This document shows, piece by piece, positions 28,573 to 32,639 of a DNA stretch of 36,237 nt. A model generated the notes under the pieces. The model had not been told where the DNA came from. It made no database searches and saw nothing but the letters and a program-made list of their open reading frames with translations. Where the stretch lies: NCBI GenBank assembly GCA_024277595.1, contig JAJRUV010000048.1, forward strand, positions 1 to 36,237, read 5' to 3'. How positions within the stretch are numbered: the first letter of the stretch is position 1; every line of letters begins with the position of its first letter. Origin of the DNA: Gammaproteobacteria bacterium (GTDB taxonomy: Bacteria; Pseudomonadota; Gammaproteobacteria; Thiohalospirales; Thiohalospiraceae). The translations under genes and the position numbers were made by a program.

Positions 28573-30957
28573 ATGATTACTGAAGAACTGGAGAGTTACC
28601 TGGAAGCGCATCGTGATGAGGCGTTTCTTCTGCTGCATCACTATCTGAATCTGGGGCGGCTGTTTCTGCTGCATTCCGATCTGCAGGATGAAATGGAAAG
28701 TTTTTGTGACCAGCAGCCCCGCAGCACTCTCCCCGGCAGCGAGTTGGCCACTGTTATTCGAGCCTCCCAGGAGGCGATCGCAAATGCACCCTGGCTCTAT
28801 TTTGCAGTACGGCCCGGCGTGGCTCACTGGTATTACCTGCGTTTTCATGTGGAACAGCGGGTGGTCGAGGAGATTCCCGTTGCGGAATTTCTGGCTTTCA
28901 AGGAGCGCCAGGTCGATGGAAATGACGGTGGCTGGACACTCGAAATTGACCTGCAACCATTTAATCGCGAGTTCCCCCGGATGCAGCAGGCGCGCTCCAT
29001 CGGGAGGGGCGTGGAGTTTCTGAACCGCCACCTTTCCGGCCGGATGTTCCAGTCGCTGCAGGAGGGTGATCGCCGTTTGCTGGGATTTTTGCGCGTACAC
29101 CAGCATCAGGGGCAGCAGTTGATGCTGAATCAGCGTATCAGCTCGGTAAAGGTGCTGCGCCAGGCCTTGCGCCGGGCAGAGGAGTATCTGGCAGAGCAGC
29201 CGCAGGAGGCATCGTGGACACAGGTGGAGGGTGTCTTGCAACCAATTGGTTTTGAGCCGGGGTGGGGACGTACGATTGCCCGTATGCGCGATACCATGCA
29301 ACTGCTGGCTGACATCCTCGAAGCGCCTGATCCGGTGACCCTGGAGAGATTTCTGGGGCGTATTCCGATGATTTTCAGACTGGCCATTCTGTCACCACAC
29401 GGCTATTTCGGCCAGGCCAATGTGCTGGGGCTGCCTGATACCGGTGGCCAGGTGGTCTACATTCTGGATCAGGTGCGGGCGCTGGAAAAAGAGATGCGCC
29501 AGCGGATTTTTGAGCAGGGGCTGGATATCGAGCCCTGCATTCTGGTTGTTACCCGGTTGATACCGGAGGCGCGGGGAACCACCTGCGATCAGCGCCTGGA
29601 ACCGATTGTTGGCACCGAACATTCGAGCATCTTGCGGGTGCCGTTTCGTTCAGCGACAGGGGAGGTGGTGCGTCACTGGATCTCCCGTTTCGAAGTGTGG
29701 CCCTATCTGGAATCTTTTGCCGCAGAGGCGAGCCGGGAGCTGGTTGCCGAACTCGGGGGGCGGCCCGATCTCATCGTTGGTAACTATTCGGATGGTAATC
29801 TGGTCGCCTCCCTGCTGGCGAATGAACTCAAGGTGACACAGTGCAACATCGCCCATGCGCTGGAGAAGACCAAATATCTCTACTCCGATCTGTATTGGCG
29901 GGAGAATGAGGAGCAGTATCATTTTGCGGCCCAGTTTACCGCCGATCTTATTGCCATGAATGCTGCGGACTTCATTATTACCAGTACCTATCAGGAGATT
30001 GCCGGCCGCAAGGATGGTGTGGGACAGTACGAGAGCTATCAATCCTTTACCCTGCCGGGTCTGTACCGGGTGGTGAACGGTATCGATGTGTTCGAGCCGA
30101 AATTCAATATTATTTCACCCGGTGCGGACAGTGAGGTCTATTTTCCCTATACGGAAACCGGGCGGCGGCTTGGCGTCCTGCACGAGGAGCTGGAGCAACT
30201 GGTGTTCGGTTCGCCGGATGAATCATCCCGCGGTGAACTGGCTGAACGGGACAAACCGTTGTTGTTTACCATGGCCCGTCTGGATCATATCAAGAATATC
30301 ACCGGGCTGGTGGAGTGGTACGGGCAGAGCGAATCATTGCGTGACGCCGCGAATCTGCTGGTGATTGCTGGCCATGTGCAGACAGAACATTCCAGTGATC
30401 GGGAGGAGCAGGAGCAGATTGCCCGCATGCATGAACTGATGGACAGATACCAGCTTGATGGTCAGTTGCGCTGGCTGGGTGTCCATCTGGATAAAAGCAT
30501 GGCCGGAGAGCTGTATCGCTTCATTGCGGATCGGCGGGGCGCCTTTGTCCAGCCCGCCCTGTTTGAGGCGTTTGGACTGACCGTCATCGAGGCCATGGCT
30601 TCCGGTCTGCCTGTTTTCGCTACGCTTTACGGGGGACCGCTGGAGATTATCGAAGACAACGTCTCCGGATTTCATATCGATCCCAATCACGGTGAACAGG
30701 TAGCCCGACAGCTCGCTGCATTTTTCAAACGGTGTCGGCATGAGCCGGACTACTGGGAGGATATTTCCCGTAGCGCCATCGCCCGGGTAGAAAATCACTA
30801 TACTTGGGAGCTATACGCTGAACGGCTTATGACCCTGTCGCGCATCTATGGTTTCTGGAGATATGTTACCGATCCGGAGCGTACGGAGACCCGGCGTTAT
30901 CTGGAGATGTTCTATGGCCTGCAGTTCAGGACTCTGGCTGAAAAGATTCCCCGTTGA
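28573..30957 (+). CDS. Sucrose synthase
   Basis: 794 residues from the ATG at 28573 ([21 protein letters not shown]), preferred because bacterial sucrose synthases begin at this point and are about this long; ATG 28546 and TTG 28528 would extend it. An N-terminal regulatory/helical region (about 1-255) precedes the GT-B core, with [47 protein letters not shown] and the EX7E motif (Glu665/Glu673 in EAFGLTVIE). It reversibly converts sucrose and NDP to NDP-glucose and fructose. With the upstream kinase this gives a sucrose salvage route. Sucrose synthase is uncommon in bacteria outside cyanobacteria and some chemolithotrophs. Confidence 0.94.
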
Positions 30958-31352
30958 CGGTTTTTTATTCGGGGTAGAAAAACAGTTTTTTGTCACTTGA
31001 CGAGAAGGTCAAACCGTAAACAGGGGTGCTGTTGTAATTTTTTGCACAGAGCAGAAGAATATGGTAAAGGAATAATTGACCACCTTGCCCATATAGGGTC
31101 TGCCCCCAGTGAGTTCGATCTAACCCGCTGATTATAATCAAATAATCAGGGGTGGTTAAATTTTAACCAAATTAACCATAATGCCTGAATTATGTGTATT
31201 TAAGAGCGTTGTTACCATTTCATCCACAAAGTTATACACAGGTTTTGTGGATAACTGTCCAATGCCTGATATTACAGCCAGTTAACAGAATTGTTTCATG
31301 ATTGTTTCATGATTGTTTCATAAAGCAGGGCTAACCTGGAGCAAGAAACCGG
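30958..31352. other. Convergent non-coding interval with DnaA-box-like sites, inverted repeats and tandem repeat
   Basis: Both flanking genes end here (sucrose synthase + and MFS -), so promoters are not needed. Seen: a perfect DnaA box on the minus strand (31246-31254, TTATCCACA), TTATACACA at 31232-31240, and a one-mismatch box TCATCCACA at 31220-31228. The last and the first are parts of inverted arms TCCACAAA/TTTGTGGA. Upstream are the inverted repeats CTGATTA...TAATCAG (31128-31149) and GGTTAAATTTTAACC (31154-31168), in a strongly AT-rich stretch. No ORF or RNA gene was recognised. An origin-like, datA-like or DnaA-titrating site is possible. Confidence 0.5.
31290..31322. repeat. Three tandem 11-mers
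   Basis: ATTGTTTCATG at 31290-31300 and 31301-31311, and ATTGTTTCATA at 31312-31322, differing only in the last base. The 11-nt period equals about one helical turn, as in iteron-like or protein-binding arrays. It lies 36 nt from the DnaA-box cluster and 30 nt beyond the 3' end of the MFS gene. Confidence 0.85.
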
Positions 31353-32639
31353 TCAATTCTCTTCCGTGATACGCGCCATACGGCGTCCCTCCTGTTCATC
31401 AACAAAAAAGAGCAACAGCAGCCCCAGAATAAACAGTGGTGCAATAGCAAGAATGGACAGGCGGGGATCGCCGGTAGCCATACTTACCCAACCCATCAGG
31501 ACGGGGCCGAGGATTGCTGCGAACCGGCCCAGCATGTTGTAGAAACCGAAAAACTCTCCGGCTTTATCCGCAGGAATGATGCGGGCATAAAATGAGCGGC
31601 TCAATGACTGGATTCCCCCTTGTACCAGGCCGATAGTGATCGCCATGGCATAGAATTCCCATTCGCTCTCCATCTTGCTGGCCCACACGATAACGATGAG
31701 ATAGACGGTAATGGCGATATAGATGCCGGTTCGGGCTCCGAACCGTTCACCCAGGATGCCAAATGCAATTGCGGCCGGGAATCCTACGAACTGGGTAATC
31801 AGTAGTGCCACGATAAGGCTGGTGCTGTCGAATCCCAACGCCATTCCATAATCTACTGCCATTTTGATGATGGTGCTGACACCGTCGATGTATAACCAGT
31901 AACTGAGCAGAAACAGAAATACCACCCGCAGACGGCGTATTTCCCTGAAGGTGTTGGAAAGCTGTCGCGTGGCCAGGCGCAGTGCAACCAGGCCGGTTCG
32001 TGTAGCATCAGCGGGCTGCGGTTCCTTGATGAACAGGAACAACGGAATGGAAAACAGCGCCCACCATGCGGCAACCATCAAAAACGACCATCGTACCGCT
32101 TCACTGGCATCTGCCAGACCAAACCAGTCCGGATTGAGGGTCATGGCGACATTGAGCGCGAATAGCAGGCCGCCACCCAGGTAGCCAACAGCGTAGCCAA
32201 AGCCGGAGACGAAATCCAGATGCTGGTGTGGGGAAACATCCACTATCAGAGCGTCATAAAAAATGATGCCACCAAAAAAACCGATGGAGGCCAGGGCATA
32301 AAGCCCCATTGCAGCAGGCCAGTTTCCCGATTCCACCCAATACAGTGCGGCGGTCATGATGATGCCAAGCAGGGTAAAATAGAGCAGGAAACGTTTTTTT
32401 TTGCCGCCCTGGTCGGCGATGGTTCCCAATAAGGGAGCCACAACAACAATCACCAGGCTTGCCGAAGAGTTGGCAATGCCGAGATAGAAACTGCTTTGGG
32501 TGACGTCGCCTCCCGCGCTCCAGTACTGTTTGAAAAAAACCGGGAAAAACCCGGCCATGATGGTGACAGCAAAGGCTGAGTTAGCCCAGTCGTACAGTGC
32601 CCAGGAGACAATCTGCTTGTTGTTGAGCCGCCGTTTCAC
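31353..32639 (-). CDS. MFS transporter, UMF1/Atg22-like family
   Basis: 428 residues with about 12 membrane helices. The opening (KQIVSWALYDWANSAFAVTIMAGFFPVFF) is diagnostic of the UMF1 family, as are IVVVAPLLGTIADQGGKKK and GLVQGGIQSLSRSFYARIIP. Substrates of bacterial members are mostly unknown; Atg22 exports amino acids from the yeast vacuole. It overlaps tatD by 4 nt (ATGA). Proximity to the sucrose genes does not by itself make it a sugar exporter, since it is on the opposite strand. Confidence 0.88.
   Translation of the reverse strand: MKRRLNNKQIVSWALYDWANSAFAVTIMAGFFPVFFKQYWSAGGDVTQSSFYLGIANSSASLVIVVVAPLLGTIADQGGKKKRFLLYFTLLGIIMTAALYWVESGNWPAAMGLYALASIGFFGGIIFYDALIVDVSPHQHLDFVSGFGYAVGYLGGGLLFALNVAMTLNPDWFGLADASEAVRWSFLMVAAWWALFSIPLFLFIKEPQPADATRTGLVALRLATRQLSNTFREIRRLRVVFLFLLSYWLYIDGVSTIIKMAVDYGMALGFDSTSLIVALLITQFVGFPAAIAFGILGERFGARTGIYIAITVYLIVIVWASKMESEWEFYAMAITIGLVQGGIQSLSRSFYARIIPADKAGEFFGFYNMLGRFAAILGPVLMGWVSMATGDPRLSILAIAPLFILGLLLLFFVDEQEGRRMARITEEN

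Follow-up and report, generated by a model that had tools for sequence, protein, structure and literature searches.

What does a cluster of DnaA boxes do between the converging ends of two genes? The question is raised by a 395-bp gap within the window (the whole 36,237-nt stretch of DNA analyzed here), bounded by the end of a plus-strand open reading frame (ORF) at 30957 and that of a minus-strand ORF at 31353. Judging the translations by eye, we take these ORFs to encode a sucrose-synthase-like protein and an MFS-like transporter, respectively. The original prediction had described the gap as a convergent intergenic region, which both ORF ends bear out, and its contents as a replication origin or DnaA-binding structure, with datA/DARS-like regulation and a relic of an integrated replicon as alternatives. 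An Rfam search of the window gave no match at the gathering threshold. In E. coli, DARS sites (DnaA-reactivating sequences) help to set replication timing, and the IHF/Fis mechanism was worked out in that bacterium. Sequence comparison makes it very likely that the site in the window is a DARS, to which DARS activity may be ascribed by analogy.

A three-box core with DARS1/DARS2 geometry

The perfect DnaA box claimed at 31246..31254 is present on the minus strand (TTATCCACA; box I). It faces two boxes on the plus strand, namely box II (TTATACACA, 31232..31240), offset from box I by 14 bp, and box III (TCATCCACA, 31220..31228, one mismatch), offset from box II by 12 bp. Both had been predicted as near-boxes within 35 bp; this holds for box III, whereas box II is better than predicted, a full match to TTATNCACA. 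Read on the minus strand, the boxes are arranged as TTATCCACA-5 bp-TGTGTATAA-3 bp-TGTGGATGA, and the 33-bp core that they make up (31222..31254, minus strand) matches the DARS-type pattern TTATNCACANNNNNTGTGNATAANNNTGTGNAT with 0 mismatches, compared with 1 for E. coli DARS1 and 3 for DARS2. The same pattern found no match with up to 4 mismatches in the fetched E. coli datA and oriC regions. In DARS1 and DARS2 of E. coli K-12, box I likewise lies on the strand opposite to boxes II and III, with offsets of 14 and 12. Because box order, orientation and both offsets are thus identical in the window, we favor the DARS reading. Passages of PMC5742627 describe the shared DARS core as such a three-box arrangement, with a spacing kept in beta- or gammaproteobacteria close to E. 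coli.

The arrangement of the boxes stands out from chance more than their number does. Single boxes are only mildly enriched in the window (6 matches to TTWTNCACA vs 2.07 expected), and the three-box geometry occurs once in it and in 0 of 100 shuffled windows (up to 3 mismatches). Genome-wide, there are 47 perfect TTATNCACA boxes, only two pairs of which have starts no more than 40 bp apart, one here and one on contig C153, and both show the identical convergent 14-bp geometry. As a geometry control, 114 genomes were searched for perfect convergent box pairs with gaps between 0 and 30 bp. The gap was exactly 5 in 63 of the 75 convergent pairs among the matches listed, as counted by hand, and two of the remaining 12 listed pairs consist of box I and box III of sites already counted. 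The reversed pattern was found in 2 of these 114 genomes.

Conservation within and beyond the genus

The core occupies the same place in all seven congeners (G001-G007), where it adjoins the sucrose synthase gene at its 3′ end. It faces the MFS gene or, in two congeners, a diguanylate-cyclase-like gene located further along; this name and those of dusB, rdgB and citrate synthase used below are presumed from translations judged by eye. Loss of the boxes in close relatives had been named among the observations that would count against the prediction. On the contrary, 28 of the 33 core positions are invariant in the eight aligned genus sequences. Distances are given here and below from the point at which the 33-bp core ends, on the box III side. 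In the same alignment, the Fis block (+45 to +68) has 14 invariant positions of 24 and the IHF block (+85 to +101) 6 of 17; outside these sites, they number 6 of 21 at +0 to +20, 1 of 24 at +21 to +44, 1 of 16 at +69 to +84, and none of 38 past +102. On the other side, the 40 positions immediately upstream of box I (window 31255-31294) include 14 that are genus-invariant, a GTTAA block among them, and the next 50 further upstream include 11; we offer no explanation for this.

The three tandem 11-mers are present at 31290..31322 (plus strand), as predicted, and probably do not belong to the DARS element. Their reading as iterons fails, since one 11-bp unit is an insertion found only in the window among the eight aligned sequences.

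Contigs C153 and C82 of the same genome hold further copies of the core, with 0 and 2 mismatches, respectively, and five congeners carry a second, weaker copy. The perfect C153 core (L005:10774-10806) lies between rdgB-like and citrate-synthase-like genes. Its flank matches the Fis consensus perfectly at +54, and the IHF-like site at +89 has two mismatches. Among the core matches listed for the congeners, none was a third copy matching that of C153.

On a wider scale, a search that tolerated 3 mismatches detected the core in 48 of 56 genomes, the window's own genome among them. With 2 mismatches tolerated, it was found in 286 of 369 genomes of the class (own included) and in 196 of 398 genomes of a phylum draw in which the class is mixed with other classes. 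The reversed core pattern matched 0 genomes in each of the three draws. At up to 2 mismatches, the core is absent from 83 of the 369 class genomes; two genomes lacking it at this threshold (G117 and G233) were checked, and both carry a short Fis-like ORF. Many families of other classes in the phylum draw had no match, and families such as f207, f211 and f215 did. A strict composite pattern retrieved 11 named contigs, 10 of them titled as Gammaproteobacteria or lineages within this class and one only as Proteobacteria. Some genomes (G408 and G052) list eight core matches, possibly with mirror matches included. Crude ORF calls placed 47 of 93 cores in tandem, 23 in divergent and 12 in convergent gene contexts, 10 inside predicted ORFs and 1 at an edge, a variation that is unlike that of a promoter operator.

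Fis- and IHF-consensus sites and a phased linker

Two conserved blocks lie beyond box III in a flank set of 93 cores from 90 loci, obtained from 94 loci after a flank-length filter had removed 4; no two of these cores, taken together with their flanks, are more than 80% identical. On this side, the window carries a Fis-consensus site with 0 mismatches (GGTTAAAATTTAACC, 31154..31168, minus strand) at +53 and an IHF-consensus-like site (AATCAGCGGGTTA, 31121..31133, minus strand), one mismatch from WATCAANNNNTTR, at +88. The former lies within an inverted repeat at 31153-31178 and the latter overlaps another at 31125-31152; both AT-rich repeats had been predicted, and they overlie these consensus sites. 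The searches used the Fis 15-mer consensus GNNYRNNWNNYRNNC and the IHF consensus WATCAANNNNTTR, the latter in agreement with published text.

Perfect Fis-consensus matches start at exactly +53 in 36 of the 93 cores, vs 0.17 per other position. Allowing starts from +51 to +56 raised this number to 45, and to 75 with one mismatch tolerated, whereas shuffles yielded means of 0.6 (maximum 3) and 9.1 (maximum 19), respectively. The IHF consensus, in one orientation and with up to one mismatch, starts between +74 and +94 in 57 of the 93 cores, 24 of them with a perfect site, and 55 of the 57 sites fall at +85 to +89; the shuffle control gave a mean of 1.8 and a maximum of 6, and the mirror side 3. 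Both sites occur in 49 cores and neither in 12. In the opposite orientation, the IHF consensus forms a smaller peak, with 13 matches at +70 to +79 among the 93 cores, close to where E. coli DARS2 has one of its two IHF-like sites.

The Fis consensus was recognized after the conserved columns of these same 93 cores had been viewed, and loci outside the set thus constitute the fairer test. They comprised nine named loci (a tenth, L130, is the same site as L016 of the set and was left out), genus and class members, and 33 loci from other classes that represent 31 distinct sites. A Fis site at +51 to +56 was found in 9/9 named loci, for which the search pattern already included the IHF site and some of the flank, as well as in 7/7 genus copies of the window site, 6/6 genus second copies and 5/5 loci of family f160. 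Weaker groups were f183 (1/2), f184 (0/2) and further class members (1/8), and 22 of the 31 distinct other-class sites, several of them from one genome, were positive. The IHF site, sought from +72 to +92, was found in 6/7, 4/6 and 3/5 of the genus copies, second copies and f160 loci, in 1/2 and 0/2 of the f183 and f184 loci, and in 5/8 further class members and 11/31 distinct other-class sites. Families on the E. coli side are often without the layout. As far as these sequence matches indicate, the core-Fis-IHF layout is frequent, with exceptions, and weak in the sampled families that carry E. coli-like DARS cores.

A strict palindrome was considered for the +53 site and discarded for most loci, as at least 6 of 7 pairs are formed in only 4 of the 93 cores, the same number as at a control place. 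Mean pairing is nonetheless highest at +53 (2.97 of 7 vs an overall mean of 1.98 in the 93 cores), and the degenerate Fis pattern fits the site better than a strict palindrome.

The Fis site is separated from the core by a 53-bp linker (31169..31221, minus strand), the first two bases of which are the end of box III. Across the 93 cores, the G+C content of the first 52 bp after the core follows a period of about 10 bp that is in phase from core to core. The power at 10.3 bp is 0.295, compared with at most 0.052 in 2000 randomly rolled sets (rolls that ignore shared ancestry), and the phasing is seen in both random halves of the cores. The 52 bp on the upstream side are more weakly phased (0.067), still above their own 2000 rolls (at most 0.022). 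Phasing is thus strongest, not exclusive, downstream of the core, and the sequence periodicity suggests that the linker DNA is bent or wrapped.

Alternative functions and relation to the E. coli sites

A chromosomal or relic replication origin would account for the box cluster, the AT-rich DNA and the direct repeats, but boxes and AT-rich DNA also occur together elsewhere in this genome. On contig C64, dnaA is next to dnaN, and the interval separating the two genes holds two perfect DnaA boxes and an AT-rich stretch; mnmG is on the 5.2-kb contig C166, which has no perfect boxes. The site adjoins none of the three genes, and the GC skew, computed within the 36-kb window only, weakens across it and stays positive, without any change of sign. 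Distances from dnaA were taken in 11 of 16 genomes, relatives with a chromosome contig that is complete or almost so and of known exact length (one of them, G329, has a further contig). Their 18 cores lie between 84 kb and 1.37 Mb from dnaA, or 0.04 to 0.87 when expressed as a fraction of a half-chromosome, compared with 0.39 for E. coli DARS2 and 0.68 for DARS1. None of the genome's own dnaA, mnmG, ParA-like and C64 proteins was matched by tblastn in the fetched sequences of the 90 loci, and the 11-mers, as noted, are not conserved. We therefore regard an origin as extremely unlikely, and the occurrence of the site at the same place in 7/7 congeners speaks against a relic of an integrated replicon. 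An intergenic gap, with dnaA on another contig, is in turn the kind of location expected of a DARS, away from oriC. The dnaA-dnaN intergenic region (L001:1651-1869) is itself a candidate oriC of this genome.

Three other functions for a DnaA-binding site were weighed against reactivation. The site might inactivate DnaA as datA does, with IHF beside the box cluster promoting hydrolysis of DnaA-bound ATP, and according to the excerpts of PMC5742627 consulted, E. coli datA also joins DnaA boxes with an IHF site and has the opposite effect on DnaA to that of DARS. The two have no geometry in common, however: the core pattern that matches DARS1 and DARS2 is unmatched in datA even at 4 mismatches, and datA boxes within one mismatch form no trio with offsets of 14 and 12. 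On these grounds, datA was discarded and a datA-like role appears quite improbable; from the pairing of datA with DARS in the original prediction, only the DARS half, whose anatomy matches, survives. High-affinity boxes could alternatively make up a plain titration site that holds DnaA and leaves its nucleotide unchanged, and joint deletion of datA, DARS1 and DARS2 is reported, in the portions seen of PMC12371093, to reduce how much of the DnaA is bound in slow-growing E. coli. Titration, which we hold to be improbable, needs neither the fixed 5-bp convergent gap that prevails among the pairs listed nor IHF and Fis sites of set orientation and distance. There is hardly any likelihood, finally, of a DnaA-controlled promoter or terminator of the neighboring genes. 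The one promoter-like match (31159-31131) is no more than shuffled sequence would give (1.0), the single hairpin resembling a terminator (31425-31409) falls outside the element, and the same element recurs in tandem, divergent and convergent gaps.

If the site is a DARS, as we consider very likely, its operation can be pictured by analogy with E. coli. ADP-DnaA would bind the three core boxes, and the molecules on boxes I and II would meet head to head, which may loosen the ADP. Fis at +53 and IHF at +88 would bend the flank and aid complex formation, and apo-DnaA would then depart and bind ATP, so that the next round of initiation at oriC could draw on more ATP-DnaA. At this site, binding, looping and nucleotide exchange are all postulated from that model. 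The genes for the proteins involved are present. Of the 446 residues aligned between the genome's DnaA and that of E. coli, 283 are identical; Asp269, Arg285 and Leu290 are retained, with Gln in place of Glu21 and Ile in place of Val211. Asp269 serves ADP release at DARS1 and Leu290 at DARS2, according to passages of PMC5742627. Two of the four IHF/HU proteins of the genome pass the IHF-alpha and IHF-beta model cut-offs, and a short Fis ORF (86 aa), which comes after a dusB-like ORF, scored 98.2 bits against a profile-model cut-off of 99. One further, weak DnaA-like match resembles a transposon helper ATPase by eye.

The likeness to E. coli DARS2, in the rppH-mutH interval, extends from the three-box core to the flank beyond box III, which carries both an IHF and a Fis site, as judged in the window by sequence match (IHF, 1 mismatch; Fis, 0). 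The order differs: core-Fis(+53)-IHF(+88) in the window and core-IHF-Fis in DARS2, where we found IHF-like sites at +60 and at +76, each with one mismatch, followed by a Fis consensus at +112. These IHF-like sites are 3 bp apart, matching IBS1-2 in the published text available. Nor does the window site lie beside mutH, its neighbors being the sucrose-synthase-like and MFS-like genes, and by either order or place it does not qualify as a DARS2 orthologue. DARS1, in the bioD-uvrB interval, has the same core and, unlike the window, no Fis consensus within one mismatch at +51 to +56; in excerpts of PMC5742627, it releases ADP in vitro without added factors. At +88, where the wider layout has its IHF site, DARS1 (L011) reads TTTTAACTGGTTA. 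This sequence differs from the IHF consensus at two positions and is perhaps an IHF remnant, a hint that DARS1 descends from the core-Fis-IHF layout.

We tentatively propose, with somewhat less than even confidence, that core-Fis(+53)-IHF(+87) with a helically phased linker was the ancestral DARS of Gammaproteobacteria and related classes. DARS1 would then be a worn copy that lost its helper sites and kept an IHF remnant at +88, and DARS2 a rearranged one; the active complex would hold the linker in a bent or wrapped state, and the site at +53 would be older than Fis. No description of the core-Fis-IHF order was found in the titles, abstract beginnings and passages covered, the latter from PMC4245941, PMC5742627, PMC8682772, PMC5010248, PMC4585315, PMC10380432, PMC13220808, PMC12371093 and PMC6090056. 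In the parts consulted, the literature presents Fis and the DARS2 core as conserved in gammaproteobacteria related to E. coli (eight species shown, E. coli included), reports DARS-like sites in Vibrio cholerae and, in a 2023 review, mentions DARS1/2-like sequences in many proteobacteria. A core with Fis and IHF sites at fixed distances provides a simple signature to locate DARS in uncultured and model bacteria, and a recurring layout ordered unlike E. coli DARS2 opens the looping model of DnaA recharging to comparative tests.

In family f207, from another class, the site at +52 of four loci (L162, L170, L171 and L172) reads GCCTAAAATTTAGGC or nearly so. In all eight f207 genomes checked, the best Fis-model match lies in an open frame of 473 to 611 aa and not in a short Fis. 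The +52/53 site is thus present in this family, in which a short Fis may have been missed or another protein may bind there.
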